Below are positions 4,674 to 49,744 of a DNA stretch of 64,000 nucleotides, one piece after another (position 1 is the stretch's first letter; each line of letters begins with the position of its first letter). Source of the stretch: Caldilineaceae bacterium (GTDB taxonomy: Bacteria; Chloroflexota; Anaerolineae; Caldilineales; Caldilineaceae). A program made the translations under genes and the position numbers. The stretch covers positions 1 to 64,000 of the forward strand of contig JADLDO010000007.1 in NCBI GenBank assembly GCA_020846635.1, in the 5' to 3' direction. A model generated the notes under the pieces. That model saw nothing but the letters and a program-made list of their open reading frames with translations, ran no database searches and was not told the DNA's origin.

Positions 4674-4870
4674 TCACTTGGGGTGAGAAGTTGAGGTATT
4701 GACAGAGAATGTTGCTGCAATTTGATCGGCGACTGGCTAATGCAAGCGCTGTGCCGTGGGTGCGCTATTTTGGCAATGCTCAGTAAATAACAAATTTTTG
4801 CGCCAACCTTTGCAGCATTTCTGCAAAGGTTGGCGGATTCACGTAGGGATTGTTTGGTCTGGACCGCAGA

Positions 4871-4904
4871 AACCTTCTCGAAAGCCCGAAGCTTTCGGGA
4901 AGGA
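4871..4904 (-). terminator. Intrinsic terminator for the 4914-7925 gene
   Basis: CCTTCTCGAAAGC-ccgaa-GCTTTCGGGAAGG inverted repeat immediately 3' of the stop codon on the minus strand. Confidence 0.7.
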
Positions 4905-4913
4905 GTGTAGCCG

Positions 4914-7900
4914 TTAGTTGAGTGCGGGTGTGATATCGAGCCAGGTGGTGCCGCCATCGGGTGTGCTGAGAAGGGCGTTGTGCTGGATGCAGTCGAAGGG
5001 GGCTGCGTCGGCGGTGCTCTCCTGTTCGGGCTCTTGCTGAGTAGGCTTGGTTCCGCTGCATAGGCCATGTTCGACAAAGACCCAGCCGTTGCCATTGTCG
5101 AGGAAGGTTGTGGCGGTTGCGCCCATCGCGGCTGCTGATTGCTCTACATTAGTAGTCACTGCGGTCAGGGGCGACCCCTCTGCCGGGTTCCAGCTTGCGC
5201 CACCATCCGTGGTGATCTGTGCCTCTGCATCGCTGGTCATAGAGACCGTCCAGCCTGTTGCGGCGTCTGCGAACTGAACGGGGCTGTTGCCGGGAACGGC
5301 GATCTCTTGCCAGGTTGCGCCACCATCCACCGTTTTGAGCAGGGTATGGATGTCAAAGCTGCTGCTGGAGGCAAGCTTGATCTGTAGAGTGCCATTGTTT
5401 GCATCAAAGAAGTTGAGTTCAACGGCCCCCTGGGTCGAGCCTGGCTCAATGGGGTTAAACTCCGTCAAGGGGCGCAGTTGCCAGGTGCGCCCACCATCCT
5501 CTGTCTGGCCCAGGTAGAGCGGGGAACGACCTTGTGCGTCCGGTTGGGCTGCGCCGACGAGCCAGCCGCGGTTCAGGTCGAGGAAGTTGGCGGCGCGCAT
5601 GTCTAGCGCCATCTCGCTGGGCGTGCGGTTGAGCCAGGTTGTGCCGCCATCGTCCGTCCAGAGGAACTGCCCCTGTGCGATCACCCAGCCGCTAGCCCCT
5701 GTCGAGCCTTCTGCCAGCAGTTGCATGTCTGTAATTTGTACAGGCTGCCACGGCTCCTCTGTTTGATCATTTTCCGCGACTTGCACCCGTGGGTTGCGTC
5801 CAGCCACCCGTCCATCAACGATATTGCTGTCAATATACAGCGTGATGCTGCCCCAGCGTTCATTATGATCGCCCGCATACTGCCTGATGCGCTGGTGATT
5901 GCTCCACAGGCTGTTGTCAATACAGGAGACATCCCACACGGTTGCGTCTGGATTGTAGGCTGGATGGATCCACGCGGCGGGCCAAATCTGGTCAACGGTA
6001 TAGGGCGCAGCCAGCACCCAATCGGTCACATAGGAGGCACACGCCGCCCCATAGGCCCCGGCTTGGTTGCCAAGCTCGTGCAGGCGGCTGGCCCATCCCG
6101 CCATAAAGGACTTCACCGTTTCTCGACATTCGGGGTTATTGGGGTAAGGCTCCATGTCATAATAGATGACAGTGCCGCCCAGCTCTTGACTGGTGAGCCC
6201 TAAATTTCTGGCCGCGGTGGCGGCTTCACCCGCCTCGTAACGTCCTTCGGCAAAGGCGACTTCAGGATTGCTGCTCATGGTGTAGAAATTCTGCGTGGTG
6301 CAAGGCGCTTGCGGCCCGACCCAAGTCGGGATCAGGTTCCAGCCTTGACCGCGCACAGTCGAAACCCAACTGGCGTTGAGATGTTCCTGGTTATGCACTC
6401 GACAGCCGCTATTGCTTCCGCCGATGTAGATGCCAAGCTCATAATAGGGGCTGTTCCCCCACCAGGTTTCCGTCTCGCTTGGATGGGGCAGGAAACAGGT
6501 ATCGAAAGCCTGGCGGTTGCTGACCGTGGTGTCGCTGCGCAGCCAGCGGAATTGTGCCAATGCTCCGCCATCGTGTTCGTAATATTCCACGCGGATCGTG
6601 TGCTGGCCCCCGCTCACCTGGCGCGTTGCCAGATTGGGGGTGGCGGATTGGTCTTGCCAGTTGTTGATGATCTGCTCATTGTCCAGCCAGACGCGCATGC
6701 CGTCGTCGGCGACCGTGACAAAGTTGTAGGCCCCGCTGCTAAAATCAAAAGTGCCTGTCCAGCGGATCGAGAAATCGTCATGGCCGATACCACTGCCCGG
6801 CCCGGAAGTGCCCCAGTTATGATTGAGCGGGGGCTGCTCGCAGCGTATGAAGAGAGGGCTGCCGCTCAATTCCTTGTTGTTGAAGTATTCAGCCTTGAAT
6901 CCACCAGGGCAATTGGCCCCCACCTCTTTTTGAACGCGTACCTGATCGACAAAGGCCCCGCGGTCAGTGATCCTGCCATCGCTGGTAAAGCGGAAGGCAA
7001 TCCAGACAGAGGAATCGCCGCGCAAGTTGCCCACGACGGGGACAGCGCCCAGGTCGAGCGTAACCGGCTTCCAACCGAGCGAATTCCCACTGACGCGCAT
7101 ACCATAGAAATCTGTGCCGTTGGGCGATGCGTACCAGCCGAGGAAGTCATAGTGCATTTCGGAGAGATTCCAATAGCTAAAGTTTAGCTGTGCGCTGGAG
7201 GCATCGCTGAGGTCAAAAGGCCCATAGACCATCCAGGTCTGCAAGTTGTTGGGATAGTTGTAGTATTCGGGGTCAAGACCATTCTGACCGCCATTCGCCA
7301 CCCACGCGCTGCGGACACCGTTATAGGACTTGGCATCATCGTCGTCCCAGAAGTATTCGCCGTTGTTCGTGCCGTCACTGTCAATGACGCGCCAATTCCC
7401 TGTGGGGAAGGCCCCCTCGAAATCTTCGTGCAGCAGGGTCACTGTGCTATCGAGTCTCTCTGGGCTTGCTGTGGCGTCTGCCTCTGTCCCCTTGGGGAGA
7501 GTGGGATCGGGTTGGGCCGGATAAAGCTCCTCACCTGGCGGCGGCGCTGGAAGCAGGCTGCCTCCAGCCGCCTGTGGTGCATCCGCCGGTTCAGCTTTAT
7601 TTTGGCTCTGCGCTTCGGTCTGGTTGAGCCGGACGACGTGAACTTCTAACGTCTCAACCTGCGATCTATCACGGGCCAGGGTAGGCAAGTAGAGGCCAAA
7701 GGGCGCGGCAATGGCGGCGGGCGTTGGGCCTGTGTCCGTGTTCATCTCTGTGTAGGGAGCGCGATCGTCCTGGGCAAGAGATACTTGCGCGCCCCGCGCC
7801 AGAGAAGCAGGGACAGGCGCGGCCAAAGCGCCTGCGCCGCTTGTGAGGATGGACAACGCTACAAGCAAGAGGCTGACCAACTTGTGTACCGGCGCTCTTG

Positions 7901-8132: not shown

Positions 8133-11000
8133 TCAAGGGCGTGCGACGCTGGGCAGATAGAGGAGTTCGATACCGAGTTGTCCGCTTGTCTCAGCGGCCC
8201 ATAGCTCGTCGCCATTTACCTCGTCGTACGCGTTGAAATAGAGGGTGCTGCCTACTTTTGCGTGTGCAACACGAGACAATGTCGAATCACCGATATCTGC
8301 GGCAAGCGTCGCGACGAACTGGGTGCCGAGAGCCGTCCCGTCGGTGCGATACAGTAGCACTGCTCCCGTGTCGAAAATCGTGAAGAAGATTTGACCGTTA
8401 TGGGCCATCATGGCGGTCGCCCGTTCAGACCAATGACCAAAACCGATCAGGAGAGGGAATGTACTCTCGTCTGTACCATCGCTTTGCCATATCGTGATGG
8501 ACGGAGGAAGGCCTCCGCCAAAGTTGTTATGATCCATGAGATAGAGGCGATCTCCATCTGCTGCCATCCCGGTCGGCGCTTGCGAAAAATCGGCAGTACC
8601 AAAGAGTGTCGCTAAGAGTTGAGTGCCTCCAACAGTTCCGTCGCTGCCCCACAGATCGATAGGCTGTCCCGATTGCGCATGTGCAACATACAAGCGATCA
8701 CCGGCTACACTATCTCTGGCGATAAAAGAACTGTTTCCCTGGGGGGGAGGAGCAAAGGCTTTGACCTCAAAGGTGCCGTCGGTCGTGCCGTCAGAACGCC
8801 AGTAATGATAGGAGCCATCACTGCCGAGCCATTTCCCATAGACAAGATGGCTGCCCGCGAACAGTGCATAGGCGTGATAGCCAGGAATCCGATATGTTCC
8901 TTCGTGCGTGCCATCACTTCGCCACAGACCACCGCCTCCGGCAAGGCCATAGTTTTGGAAGAATGTCTGATGGGGTGTAGATACAAATCCGATTGACGAG
9001 TAGTCCGCTCCGCCCGTCTCCCAGATGTTGAAATTGAATAGGAGTTCTAACCCATCGTGGCTGTCGTTCAGTCGCCACAGACCCCAATTCACGCCCATTT
9101 TCTGATCTTCCAGCAAAAGAAGTCGATTGTTTGTCACCGTCAGGCTTGCTTGATAGCCGGGCACGTTGTCTACAAGCAGGCGTGTGCCGTCTGCTGTGCC
9201 GTCGCTCTGCCATAGTCCATACCAATGTTCTTCAGGAGTGTAGCGATATCGAGCCAGGAAATAGAGGGTATCGCCCTGTGTGGTAAGCTGCCGGGGCGCT
9301 GTCCATTCATTGTTGAGGGTTCGGTTCGGCAATACAAGTGTTCCCGCCTCTGTGCCATCGGTGCGATAGACATGAGGCCCATTGCGCCCTTCGTCTGCGA
9401 CAAAATAGAGATAGTCGTCACCAGCGGTTAGTTCGGTGGGCGCAAAGGAGACATCCCGATAGGGGGGTAGGAAAACGGGCGGCGGAATGGGCTGCGTATG
9501 GATGTTTTTTACCTGCCAGGTGCCGGAGGGCGTGCCGTCGCTGCGCCACAACTCTGCCCCATCAATACCATCGGTGGCAGGGAAGTAGAGAATTCCATGA
9601 AATGCTCCCCAATCTCCCTGATTGACGATGCCTGCACCGAAGCCAAAGTTAATATCGCTCACGATGTGATATTCATAAGCACCGGCTGCGCTGTCATAGA
9701 TATGAACTTCCCGGTCTGGCCCATGACTACGCGGTGTAAAGAAATGTTTGTTGCCGATGATCGTGTAAGAAGGCTGGAAGAATAGATCCGGGTGGAGAAT
9801 GTCTGTCCCCTCTGGCGTGCCATCACTCACATAAAGCTGCGCATTCGGGCGCGATAGATGGTCAAATGGATAGCGTGTCATCCAGAAATAGATTTTGCTT
9901 TCGTCGTGCATGAATTCGTCCATGTGGGCATAGAAATCAATGCGTTTCACCATGCGCGTGGTTGCAGGCGTGCCATCACTGCGCCATAGCTCCGAGAATG
10001 CAAAAGAATAAGGGGAGAACTGCTCTGGAAAGTAGTAGGTGAAATAGATCTGATCCTGGCCGCTATCGTCCGCAAACGTCAACAGGCGCGTTTGGGTGGC
10101 GGTGATTGGCGGGGTGGTCAGTAGGGGGACGGTTTCTGTAAGTGTGCCGCTGCTGCGCCAAAGCTGGTTGCTCTCGTCACCTGAGACGAAGAAATAGAAG
10201 CGGTCTGCGCTGCTGCTCACCGCACTGGGCCAGCCATCGAGCGTGATCAACGGCTCTAACGTGACATCGCTGTGCATTGCCGAATAGATTGCCGGTGCTT
10301 GACCTGCGAGTTGGGCAACGAGATAGATGAAATTGGGTGTCGCCTGGAGGAAAACAGTGCTCGTCGAGTCTGCGAGCGCACCGGATTGCCAAAGCTGCAG
10401 CGGGGTTGGCGCATCGGGTTGGACGCGCCAGAGGGTCACGCCACTGGCGGGCGCGGCTGCTTCTCCGGTAACATAATAGAGCGTATCGTCGCCACCAACC
10501 GCCTGGGCAAGTATACGCTGACCGGCGGGAATGGCCCCCAACTGGGTTGTGGTGTCGCCATCTGTGCGAAAGAGATATACTCTGTCCTCCTGCTGCGCGA
10601 AAAGATAGAGCCAGCGGCGTCCTGCCTGGTGCGGGAGGTCGCTGCGCTGAAAGCCGGAGAGGTTGATCGCGCGTTGGGTCCCGGCTTCTGTGCCATCGGT
10701 GCGCCATAGCTCCCATCCGGCACCGCTCTCCACTTCTAACTGTTCACTTTCGATGGTGGCAGGGGCGACCATGAAAAAGAGATAGCGCTCAGTGGCGGTG
10801 AAGGATTCGATGGCAGAGGAAGCGTTGGCTTCTAGAAGGGCCTTGCCGCTCAAGCTTTTTACCATTCTCACATCAGCTCCTGCCTGCATTGTGCTTGGCA
10901 GGGTTGATTGGGCAGCAGCCGTGTCGGAGGATGTGATGAAAATGGCGGGTATCGTCAGGAGCAAACAGGTAATGCGGCGAATGATGGCAATGGAGGGCAT
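8133..11000 (-). CDS. Secreted ELWxxDGT-repeat protein
   Basis: 955 aa with about 16 repeats such as WELWRTDGTEAGT, AELWRSDGTPSGT, GLWQSDGTADGT; signal-like N-terminus. Confidence 0.93.
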   Translation of the reverse strand: MPSIAIIRRITCLLLTIPAIFITSSDTAAAQSTLPSTMQAGADVRMVKSLSGKALLEANASSAIESFTATERYLFFMVAPATIESEQLEVESGAGWELWRTDGTEAGTQRAINLSGFQRSDLPHQAGRRWLYLFAQQEDRVYLFRTDGDTTTQLGAIPAGQRILAQAVGGDDTLYYVTGEAAAPASGVTLWRVQPDAPTPLQLWQSGALADSTSTVFLQATPNFIYLVAQLAGQAPAIYSAMHSDVTLEPLITLDGWPSAVSSSADRFYFFVSGDESNQLWRSSGTLTETVPLLTTPPITATQTRLLTFADDSGQDQIYFTYYFPEQFSPYSFAFSELWRSDGTPATTRMVKRIDFYAHMDEFMHDESKIYFWMTRYPFDHLSRPNAQLYVSDGTPEGTDILHPDLFFQPSYTIIGNKHFFTPRSHGPDREVHIYDSAAGAYEYHIVSDINFGFGAGIVNQGDWGAFHGILYFPATDGIDGAELWRSDGTPSGTWQVKNIHTQPIPPPVFLPPYRDVSFAPTELTAGDDYLYFVADEGRNGPHVYRTDGTEAGTLVLPNRTLNNEWTAPRQLTTQGDTLYFLARYRYTPEEHWYGLWQSDGTADGTRLLVDNVPGYQASLTVTNNRLLLLEDQKMGVNWGLWRLNDSHDGLELLFNFNIWETGGADYSSIGFVSTPHQTFFQNYGLAGGGGLWRSDGTHEGTYRIPGYHAYALFAGSHLVYGKWLGSDGSYHYWRSDGTTDGTFEVKAFAPPPQGNSSFIARDSVAGDRLYVAHAQSGQPIDLWGSDGTVGGTQLLATLFGTADFSQAPTGMAADGDRLYLMDHNNFGGGLPPSITIWQSDGTDESTFPLLIGFGHWSERATAMMAHNGQIFFTIFDTGAVLLYRTDGTALGTQFVATLAADIGDSTLSRVAHAKVGSTLYFNAYDEVNGDELWAAETSGQLGIELLYLPSVARP

Positions 11001-46090: not shown

Positions 46091-47386
46091 TCATTCAAGC
46101 ATGCGATCGTCCAGTCCATATTCATGCACAAGATGGGCATTCCAAGCATCCAAAAACTCTGATACCGAATCGCCAAAGACGGTGGGGATGATCTCCTCCC
46201 ACGCGCCATAGCGAACGAGGCCAAGCAGCAGGTCGGGCACGCGATCGCGCCCATAGTGATCGACGACAAAGGTCATAAAGGATTCGGCAGCGAGATAGCG
46301 CAGGATCACTTCTTCGCGCGTGGGGCGCACAGTGGTGCGTAGGTCGGTGATATGGCTGAAGCCGATGGGCAGGAACTCCGGTGCAGCCTCGCGCAACACG
46401 GCGCTGGCCTCCACATGCCAGGGTGAAGATTGTTCTAGAATATCGTCGCGCAGCCAACCGCGCAGCCCCCACACCAGGATAGGCCAACGATAAAGATAGC
46501 GCACTGTCATGTTGGGCGCGGCGTCGCGAATGGCGCGATAGGTAAACCAGCCCATGACTTCATAGGCAAAATACTCGCTGTCGCTTTGGCTTTCGGGAAT
46601 CTGGGCCAGGAGAGGCGACGTTACTTCGAATTCGGGCATGGTAGAGGACCAACGCGTAATCGGGCGGGGAAGGACTTTGATTACCTGTATATCGTCGGGC
46701 GGGTTTGGCAGCCCCAGCGTGCGATACATCTCCACATAGGCCGCTTCGAGCTTGGGCGCTGCTGCCTCGACCGCGGGCGCGTCAAGCTCATAGTAGATAA
46801 AGTGCAAATGCCGGGTCGTTAATTCGTGCGTATCGCCCCAATGGCCGGCGGGTGGCACTGTACGCAGCCAACGCTGGTTGACGCGGCGATAGAAACGTTC
46901 TTCGCGATAGGGGTTGGTCTGCCACCACTCAAAGGCAGGCTGCTGTGTGATGACCGTGGCTTGCATAAAGCCACCGGTTTCACGGACATAGAGCAATTTC
47001 GCTTCATAGTCCGGCTGGCTCTCTACCCCGGCGCGCCAATAATCTCGCCACTCATCCACCCATCCATCATCGAGGTTGGGGTCAATCAGGCTCTCATAGA
47101 GACGGCGATCCCGGCGCTGCCAAGCCTCATTCTCCAGTGACAACGTGAAGTTGATGCCCTTTTGCGCCTCGCGCCGCTCACGTTCGCTGTGGCTGATCCC
47201 CGTGGCTGACGCAGCGGCGATGACGACCAGGAGAAGGGCCAAGCCACGCAGCACACGTATGGCGATGATCTGCTCGACGCTGCTCGGATTAGCTGGACGA
47301 CCCGCGCTGTCGGCATCCAGTGCGCGCCAGAAATCCACCCTGCTTTCTTCCAAGACCCACTCAAAGGTGATCCGCTGCTGTGCCAT
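46091..47386 (-). CDS. Uncharacterised membrane-anchored protein, possibly a degenerate gluzincin (peptidase_MA-like) fold
   Basis: ORF track 46091-47479; MAQQRITFEW start at 47386; TM helix IRVLRGLALLLVVIAAASATG; C-terminal YLAAESFMTFVVDHYGRDRVPDLLLGLVRYGAWEEIIPTVFGDSVSEFLDAWNAHL. Confidence 0.65.
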   Translation of the reverse strand: MAQQRITFEWVLEESRVDFWRALDADSAGRPANPSSVEQIIAIRVLRGLALLLVVIAAASATGISHSERERREAQKGINFTLSLENEAWQRRDRRLYESLIDPNLDDGWVDEWRDYWRAGVESQPDYEAKLLYVRETGGFMQATVITQQPAFEWWQTNPYREERFYRRVNQRWLRTVPPAGHWGDTHELTTRHLHFIYYELDAPAVEAAAPKLEAAYVEMYRTLGLPNPPDDIQVIKVLPRPITRWSSTMPEFEVTSPLLAQIPESQSDSEYFAYEVMGWFTYRAIRDAAPNMTVRYLYRWPILVWGLRGWLRDDILEQSSPWHVEASAVLREAAPEFLPIGFSHITDLRTTVRPTREEVILRYLAAESFMTFVVDHYGRDRVPDLLLGLVRYGAWEEIIPTVFGDSVSEFLDAWNAHLVHEYGLDDRMLE

Positions 47387-47745
47387 GAGGCCTGCTCCTG
47401 TGGGCACGACCATGCAGCAAGGGGCGCATGGTGATCCGCACTGTCGCAATCTGCACTGTGACCATCTGTCCTGTAACAACCTGAATCGAGGTCGGGGTCT
47501 GCGCTGGCCTGACGCTTAGAATGACGGTTTACAAAATCGGATGCTGTGCGCCACGTTCCATTGTCCCAACGAACAATGGTAGCTTTCGAGGTATATCTTC
47601 GAACGCACCTATTTTAATCGCTATATCGTCATGATCACAAGAGCTAACCTTCAAGATAAAAGTCCTGGTTGCCTACATCAAATTCATGTGGGTTAGCGTG
47701 ATCTTCGTCGTTCCCCCGTGGTTCTGCGAAAGGAAAAAATTGAAT

Positions 47746-48558
47746 ATGTCTAGGATGGCACAATTTCGTCTCAGTATAGGGGCGATCCTCATTGTAATGC
47801 TAGGGTTCGCCTGGATTCCTCAAGCCGTGAGCGCGTCCGAAGGGGAGCCGCAGGACGGCCCGTCGGGTCCAACTGCGTCCCAATATGGGCCTGGTAATGG
47901 TTACGATGATGGGTACAGCGGTGATCGCAATAGTGACTACAACAATGACTATGGTAATGATTACGGTGGTGGGTACAACGATGAGCGCAGTAGCGACTAC
48001 AACAACGAGCGCGACGGTGGGTACAGCGATGAATACAATGGCGGGTACAACAACGAGCGCGATGGTGGGTACAATGGCGTAAATAGTCGATCCGGTGTCT
48101 GTTCGTCTATTCATACAGTGGGGCTTGGGGAAAATCTCTCTAGGATCGCTGAGCAATATGGGGTGAGTGTAGATGATTTGGCATCGGAGAATCATCTGGA
48201 CGATACGAATCTCATCTATGAAAATCAAGCGCTTTGCATCCCGATCTATGGATCCGGCCCTTCTTCCGGCAGCCGAAACGACGGATACAACAGCCCGGAT
48301 CGCTCTGGCGGATACGACAATCAGGACAACGGGTATGGCAATCAGGGCGGCTATGGGCGACCCGGTGAGAGCTATGACCCAAGCCTTCGCTACGGCGACC
48401 AAAGCAATGGCTATGGCGAGCAGAGCAATGGTTATGGCGAGCAGAGCAATCGCTATGGCGACCAGGGCAACAGCTATGGAAACCAAAGCAATAGCTATGG
48501 CGATCGGGACAATGGCGATGAGCTACAGCCAGGCCAATCGCGCTGGAGTTCGGACTAA
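47746..48558 (+). CDS. Secreted LysM protein with flanking Y/G/N/D/Q-rich low-complexity repeats
   Basis: Signal peptide-like N-terminus; HTVGLGENLSRIAEQYGVSVDDLASENHLDDTNLIYENQALCIP LysM; DGGYN and YGEQSNG repeats. Confidence 0.88.
   Translation: MSRMAQFRLSIGAILIVMLGFAWIPQAVSASEGEPQDGPSGPTASQYGPGNGYDDGYSGDRNSDYNNDYGNDYGGGYNDERSSDYNNERDGGYSDEYNGGYNNERDGGYNGVNSRSGVCSSIHTVGLGENLSRIAEQYGVSVDDLASENHLDDTNLIYENQALCIPIYGSGPSSGSRNDGYNSPDRSGGYDNQDNGYGNQGGYGRPGESYDPSLRYGDQSNGYGEQSNGYGEQSNRYGDQGNSYGNQSNSYGDRDNGDELQPGQSRWSSD
48391..48516 (+). repeat. 21-bp tandem repeat, 6 copies, encoding YG(D/E/N)Q(S/G)N(G/S/R)
   Basis: YGDQSNG YGEQSNG YGEQSNR YGDQGNS YGNQSNS YGDRDNG. Confidence 0.9.
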
Positions 48559-48651: not shown

Positions 48652-48690
48652 AAAAAAGAGACCTTTCCAGGTTGGAAGGTCTCTTTTTGT
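48652..48690 (+). terminator. Intrinsic terminator of LysM gene
   Basis: AAAAAGAGACCTTTCCAGGTTGGAAGGTCTCTTTTTG. Confidence 0.85.
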
Positions 48691-48742: not shown

Positions 48743-49744
48743 CTAGGCACTGGCGACCTCACCCTCGCGCATCCTGTGTGCGGCTTCCCAGCCGATGAGC
48801 GCGCGTTTGCGTGTGGCTCCCCAGCGATAGTCACTCACAAGCCCACCCTGGCGAATCACGCGGTGGCAGGGAATCAGGTAGGCGACGGAGTTGGCCCCGA
48901 TCGCGCTGCCCACAGCGCGCATGGCCTTTGGGCTCTCGATGGCGCGCGCAATATCCGCATAGGTGCAGACAGCACCCAGTGGGAGGCGCAGCAGGGCTTC
49001 CCAGACTTTGATCTGGAAGTTAGTGCCTTTGACCAGGATACGCAAGGGGGGCAGATCGTTGTCTTGCCCGGTCGCTGGCCCATTCTCCTGGGTAGTAGGC
49101 TGGGGCGCAAAAATGCGCTCGATCAGCGGCGCAGTTGCGTCGGGGTCAACTGTAATGGTCGCGGCCTTCCAACTCTTGTGAAGCTCGTCGATTGCCTGTT
49201 CCCACGAATGATCGGGGTCAAGGAAATTGAGCGCCACGATGCCGCGCGGGGTCGTGGCAAGCAAGCAGTCGCCAAAGGGGGTGCTGTGCCGCCCCACGCT
49301 GATTTTGAGTCCGGCCCCCTGGCTTTTGTACTCGCCGGGAGTCACCGCTTCCAGTGTGACAAAAAGGTCATGCAGCCGCCCCGGCCCAGAGAGTCCCGCA
49401 TCATAGGCCGCATCCAGAACGCTTTGCGCGGCCAACAGGCTCGCCTTCGCATAATCTACGGTCAAGAATTGGAGAAAGCGTTTGGGGCTGATGCCCGCCC
49501 AACGGCTAAAGACACGCTGGAGGTGGAAGGGGCTTATATTCAGCCGCACCGCTAGATCGTCGAGGCTGGGCTGTTCTTGAAAGTTCTGGCCCAGATAGTG
49601 GATCGCTTGGGCAACCAGCGCATAGTCTGTCGATTCGGTCTGTCTTGCGTCCAGCATATCGGCGGATCGTATTTCAGTCGGGATTGTTCGTAAATTCACC
49701 ACGTTTCTCCTGATCTCTCCTCGTACTCTCCTTGTATCCATCAT
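48743..49744 (-). CDS. Ada-like bifunctional AraC-type regulator/methylated-DNA-protein cysteine methyltransferase
   Basis: LDDLAVRLNISPFHLQRVFSRWAGISPKRFLQFL HTH; AVGSAIGANSVAYLIPCHRVIRQGG active site. Confidence 0.94.
   Translation of the reverse strand: MMDTRRVRGEIRRNVVNLRTIPTEIRSADMLDARQTESTDYALVAQAIHYLGQNFQEQPSLDDLAVRLNISPFHLQRVFSRWAGISPKRFLQFLTVDYAKASLLAAQSVLDAAYDAGLSGPGRLHDLFVTLEAVTPGEYKSQGAGLKISVGRHSTPFGDCLLATTPRGIVALNFLDPDHSWEQAIDELHKSWKAATITVDPDATAPLIERIFAPQPTTQENGPATGQDNDLPPLRILVKGTNFQIKVWEALLRLPLGAVCTYADIARAIESPKAMRAVGSAIGANSVAYLIPCHRVIRQGGLVSDYRWGATRKRALIGWEAAHRMREGEVASA

Follow-up and report, generated by a model that had tools for sequence, protein, structure and literature searches.

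Wall anchoring of exported proteins through a LysM domain is established for the family. A LysM on its own is a poor binder, but regains binding when it is multimerised artificially (PMC4004799). A crystal structure shows LysM dimerisation bridged by the glycan, and most of the glycan contacts of P60 from T. thermophilus are made by the main chain (PMC4356369). In the spore coat protein SafA of Bacillus subtilis, a region of the protein builds a layer on the peptidoglycan, and the self-assembled form is then cross-linked (PMC6490927). LysM is also listed among the Pfam domains of bacterial proteins with prion-like domains, which on average contain N 30%, Q 21%, S 11% and G 11%; enrichment in Gly, Ser and Tyr is present in the wider prion-like class as well (PMC4606120). 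In the Chloroflexota, filamentous members are the backbone of activated-sludge flocs, and the mechanism of surface adhesion is described as unclear (PMC10746286).

Here, we analyse a gene for a single-LysM protein in a stretch of 64,000 nucleotides of DNA (the window). Its features, all reported on the + strand, are as follows.

47746..48558, +: complete gene, 270 aa, for a secreted protein with one LysM and two low-complexity regions rich in Tyr and Gly (ORF, Pfam, composition)
47746..47835, +: predicted signal peptide, residues 1-30, MSRMAQFRLSIGAILIVMLGFAWIPQAVSA followed by SEG, ending in QAVSA (read from the sequence)
47836..48099, +: N-terminal disordered region, 88 aa, residues 31-118 (composition, pLDDT)
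47892..48056, +: direct repeats in the DNA, 60 and 48 nt apart, encoding the N-terminal YN/GGY pattern (repeat detection)
48100..48243, +: LysM domain, with Cys119 and Cys164 at either side, CSSIHTV...QALCIP (Pfam PF01476, PDB matches)
48244..48555, +: C-terminal disordered region, 104 aa, residues 167-270 (composition, pLDDT)
48391..48516, +: six 21-bp (7-aa) units, YGDQSNG YGEQSNG YGEQSNR YGDQGNS YGNQSNS YGDRDNG (repeat detection, translation)
48653..48688, +: terminator-like hairpin between the gene and the ada/ogt-like gene, A-run on its left and T-run on its right (terminator scan)

The frame runs from the ATG at 47746 to the stop codon at 48556-48558, exactly as in the preliminary description, which presented the product as a secreted LysM domain sandwiched between prion-like repeat domains. 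A further in-frame ATG lies upstream at 47686; the signal peptide follows directly from the 47746 start. Secretion is backed by the layout of this predicted signal peptide (an Arg, then a hydrophobic core, then a cleavage motif of small residues), and the LysM placed between two low-complexity regions is borne out by flank composition and by the sole Pfam match of the protein (residues 123-166, 48.8 bits against a cut-off of 20.9). The part of that description that does not hold is 'prion-like' in the N/Q sense, which we take up below. The mature protein (240 residues) contains 26 Tyr, 13 Arg, 41 Asp+Glu and no Lys, with a pI of about 4.05 and a GRAVY of -1.5.

On either side lie genes on the opposite strand. 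The divergent neighbour (46091-47479, -) is named gluzincin-like by eye, its product having no Pfam match; some relatives have several matches to its family, as many as 12 in one genome (G006). The convergent neighbour is an ada/ogt-like gene (48743-49744, -), in which an AraC-type HTH is fused to a 6-O-methylguanine-DNA methyltransferase domain, the Pfam result lacking the Ada metal-binding domain. With an A-run on its left and a T-run on its right, the hairpin between the two could terminate both the LysM gene and this neighbour. Among the adjacent genes, ORFs and Pfam gave none suggesting secretion, cross-linking or regulation. Elsewhere in the window, the protein encoded at 8133-11000 (-), 955 aa long, begins with a signal-like segment and contains many LWRSDGT-type repeats.

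The LysM domain scores 51.2 bits in a genome-wide LysM scan. When the mature sequence was given to AlphaFold2 without other input, the LysM block reached a pLDDT of about 61-78, and both flanks fell below 50 (35-39 for most of the stretch in the N-terminal blocks). The predicted fold is beta-alpha-alpha-beta (E88-95 H101-108 H112-118 E131-137, mature numbering). Its closest solved folds are GlcNAc-binding LysMs such as 4uz3, the P60 LysM of T. thermophilus in co-crystal with chitohexaose (TM-score by target 0.80, with Foldseek E-values >0.001 for a query that is mainly disordered); the closest by sequence are LytE, CEBiP and P60. The claim of peptidoglycan anchoring is thereby backed by both the domain and its predicted fold. 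At the positions of the P60 side-chain contacts (PMC4356369), the alignment places Asn for Thr26, Asn for Phe50 and Tyr for Gln53. The same bracketing Cys pair is present in 20 distinct LysM domains from many relatives; a subtype clamped by a putative disulfide thus seems to be common in the group.

The N-terminal region contains G 23%, N 15%, D 14% and Y 14%, has a net charge of -13 and, once past the first gap, spaces its Tyr residues 4 or 8 apart; the string GYDDGYSGDRNSDYNND... quoted from it in the preliminary description matches the protein letter for letter. Repeat periods of 24/48/60 bp were detected in its DNA over 47892-48074. The C-terminal region contains G 22%, S 16%, Y 12%, N 12%, D 11% and Q 9%, with a net charge of -8, and a 21-bp DNA period was detected at about 48376-48503 (5.5-6.1 copies), Tyr being 6-7 residues apart in the array. 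Six repeats of the form YG(D/E/N)Q(S/G)N had been claimed here; five of the six units fit YG[DEN]Q[SG]N, and the sixth is the degenerate YGDRDNG. In the richest 80-residue stretch, Y/G/N/D/Q make up 72.5%; none of the 20 other window proteins compared exceeds 47%, so the composition is not due to chance. Alignment of the N- and C-terminal tails is no better than with shuffled sequences, and we reject a simple duplication of one from the other. We found no match to GG.G.D in the protein, which speaks against RTX calcium-binding repeats (GGxGxD nonapeptides), and EF-hand-like metal motifs were likewise looked for and are not present.

Regular Tyr spacing, together with substitutions among the six C-terminal units, points to selection acting on the peptide. 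Differences among these units number 24/10/39 at codon positions 1/2/3. The annotated frame has a pN/pS of 0.29, and the remaining five range from 0.57 to 1.48; with few and related units, this is a tendency and no formal test. Because of this third-position bias and the lowest pN/pS in the annotated frame, the repeat appears to be kept as a peptide, beyond a repeat of the DNA. The N-terminal repeat pair differs at 0/6/3 of these positions, without third-position bias, and the selection argument therefore rests on the C-terminal array. The other + frames and an opposite-strand frame were rejected as coding, since selection sits in the annotated frame. The latter (47800-48486, -; 228 aa, stop-free and A/I/V/L-rich) stays open because of the TAY/GGN/AAY/GAY codons of the gene, and might be taken for a membrane protein in annotation.

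How widespread is this architecture? The host genome (6.85 Mb, 79 contigs) holds 50 LysM matches. Outside it, the best match in 61 genomes searched comes from one congener, Chloroflexi bacterium CFX7 J3 (G001:C1037, QEUY01000244.1), the one real homologue found. Like the window protein, it has a signal peptide, a Cys-clamped LysM and a C-terminal Tyr/Gly/Asn/Asp tandem repeat, and in both a DP-containing segment lies between repeats. It differs in having no N-terminal Tyr/Gly region, in other neighbour genes and in its repeat, (DNGYGR)n with a 6-aa period rather than 7, as far as its C end, lost at a contig edge, can be read. When the two tails were aligned, 5 of 1000 shuffles equalled or beat the alignment. 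With the same make-up at another period, repeat units turn over between these proteins while the Tyr/Gly/Asn/Asp make-up is kept, as judged from their sequences.

Synteny with a second congener (G002) extends over the M19 dipeptidase, ada/ogt-like, gluzincin-like and aminotransferase genes, but there the gap that holds the LysM gene (1263 bp in the window) is 279 bp long and empty. Thus, the gene was gained in the window lineage or lost in G002, and since a close relative lacks it at this site, it is probably dispensable. No inverted repeats of a mobile element surround it, so transport by such an element was rejected, and no homologous intergenic sequence marking the junction is left, which makes insertion and loss indistinguishable.

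Broader scans agree on a narrow distribution. Among 396 genomes of the class (a sample that left out CFX7), the tandem pattern NGYG-x2/3-NGYG occurs in this gene and one other, in G111 (intervening codons Phe-Phe-Lys by eye), which we read as chance. In a looser scan of 46 genomes of the family, the pattern stands beside a LysM solely in the window genome and CFX7. A tblastn search of a plasmid collection and a whole-protein scan of a GTDB genome collection gave no matches; a protein search with the tails retrieved just the protein itself, perhaps through composition correction, and is weak evidence of absence. A tree of 18 LysM domains groups the window protein with the CFX7 homologue at weak support (83/25). 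Across 73 LysM reading frames, the highest Tyr/Gly/Asn/Gln/Asp content is that of the window protein and the CFX7 homologue, followed by L126, from another family of the class, with a Trp/Tyr/Gly/Asp linker, and by a paralogue (C41) with an Asn/Gln/Tyr/Pro linker. Aromatic-glycine flanks beside a LysM thus seem to have arisen more than once in the class. In L126 (G082:C56:157500-159700), the linker, which also contains Lys (GGHDKGWDNGYNKPNWNGGYEHAGWDGGWDKKADYNYG), joins two LysMs. The paralogue, from the same genome as the window (L080 about 4811-5239, G000:C41:205104 region), has the genome's best LysM score, a signal peptide and a Cys-clamped LysM at its C end, after an Asn/Gln/Pro/His/Tyr-rich linker (SGYGNQGRAYDPG...NHNHHNNNNR). 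A clamped LysM in G002 (L070 about 1171-1356, G002:C296) lies in a 62-aa frame without a signal peptide, perhaps through a frameshift or assembly error in a MAG. Altogether, the window protein is real, unusual, lineage-restricted within the sampled genomes and of a known general kind.

What could such a protein do? Its signal peptide would export it, and the Cys-clamped LysM would dock onto the glycan chains of the wall, export and peptidoglycan anchoring being what these two elements predict. The lysine-free, acidic, disordered flanks, with regular Tyr in G/S/N/D contexts, probably then stick to one another or to neighbours. Because a lone LysM binds weakly, such weak multivalent contacts would add avidity to the array, and the product would be a thin proteinaceous coat or cell-cell adhesive. 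We infer that multimerisation falls to the tails and that a coat or adhesive layer results, a matrix or adhesive protein being the most likely inference, probably a lineage-specific one. For the whole explanation (a solitary gene encoding an exported, fast-evolving, peptidoglycan-anchored surface protein whose self-associating tails lend avidity to a single LysM), we see about an even chance. In its favour count a LysM well above the cut-off with a predicted fold near GlcNAc-binding LysMs, flanks of low pLDDT, the Tyr spacing, the pN/pS in the repeats and the tail make-up kept in CFX7 despite its 6-aa period. Against it count the net charges of the tails, which oppose self-association at low salt, the Asn/Asn/Tyr at P60 contact positions, the absence of the gene at the same site in G002, and that the tails could be mere spacer or brush. 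Acidic tails suggest that salt or divalent cations would matter.

Other explanations have to be weighed against this coat or adhesive. An N/Q-rich prion-like region is one with at least 30 Q+N in 80 residues. In the window protein the maximum is 19, Q+N comes to 17% in the N-terminal and 20% in the C-terminal region, and PAPA scores (from our own implementation of its weights) are -0.14, -0.07 and, for the full mature protein, 0.015, all below the cut-off of 0.05. With N 12-15% and Q 2-9%, it also falls well short of the average N 30% and Q 21% of bacterial prion-like domains, to whose LysM proteins it is alike in placing a polar low-complexity region beside a cell-wall domain (PMC4606120). 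On N/Q criteria, 'prion' is the wrong label. A prion-like or functional-amyloid adhesin, the original suggestion, fits the Asn/Gln/Gly/Ser/Tyr content, the repeats and the occurrence of LysM beside prion-like domains, but given these figures and strongly acidic, Gly-rich tails without a hydrophobic stretch, we consider it highly improbable. Tyr-driven self-association of the Gly/Ser/Tyr type is another matter and may still take place in the tails, since Gly/Ser/Tyr enrichment occurs in the wider class (PMC4606120). Carried further, FUS-like Tyr spacing in Gly/Ser/Asn contexts on both sides of the LysM might form a wall-tethered extracellular condensate, whose phase separation outside the wall would switch the LysM from weak to tight binding while the period drifts quickly and the Tyr pattern is kept; we regard this as distinctly unlikely.

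The main rival, somewhat unlikely in our judgement, is a passive acidic brush, in which the tails of a wall-bound LysM serve as hydrophilic, unstructured spacers or as a hydration coat and do not self-associate. A pI of about 4, zero Lys, the GRAVY and the predicted disorder all suit it, as do the Pro/Thr-rich, acidic and His/Asn/Gln-rich linkers of other LysM proteins of the class, whose variety suggests that many linkers are interchangeable. Yet if the tails were a neutral spacer, neither Tyr at fixed distances nor purifying selection in the repeat would be needed, nor a make-up kept in the homologue although the period changes. Tails joined by dityrosine or other oxidative Tyr bonds into an insoluble wall layer would account for so many Tyr, and the architecture is like that of SafA-type coat scaffolds, which self-assemble and are then cross-linked (PMC6490927); Gln-Lys links of the protein with itself by transglutaminase are impossible, as it is Lys-free. 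Neither a peroxidase nor an oxidase is evident next to the gene (ORFs and Pfam), and we rate such a cross-linked coat as very unlikely. An enzyme-free LysM protein might also protect peptidoglycan against LysM hydrolases of the same cell or set their binding sites, as the many LysM matches in the genome and the missing catalytic domain would allow; this leaves the repeat tails unexplained and has no genetic link to a hydrolase, and we find it highly doubtful.

If the protein is indeed wall-anchored and self-associating, it is a concrete adhesion or matrix candidate for the phylum Chloroflexota. It is also a compact natural test of the idea that, for binding to the wall, disordered multivalent tails might stand in for several LysM modules.

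Among known systems, the aggregation-promoting factor of Lactobacillus (Apf; L. fermentum SEP, PMC4004799) is likewise a LysM-anchored surface protein, linked by name to aggregation. It comes from a different phylum. Any similarity of its non-LysM part to the window protein is putative. SafA/C30 of the B. subtilis spore coat shares the combination of a LysM anchor with a non-enzymatic region that self-associates (here presumably), a likeness of architecture (PMC6490927). In SafA, the LysM lies in the N-terminal localisation region and the protein has a sporulation role with SpoVID and Tgl (PMC6490927), whereas the window protein carries its LysM centrally (residues 119-166), with a signal peptide and 88 further residues ahead of it. 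Closest in kind are secreted single-LysM (PF01476) proteins of the Chloroflexota (G000:C41:205104, G001:C113, G002:C296), which also have one Cys-bracketed LysM, no enzyme domain and a low-complexity neighbour; the export signal is common to all but the short G002:C296 frame, where it is not visible. The linkers of these paralogues are short, Asn/Gln/Pro/His-rich or with Arg/Lys, and confined to the N side, whereas long acidic Tyr/Gly tails flank the LysM of the window protein on both sides.
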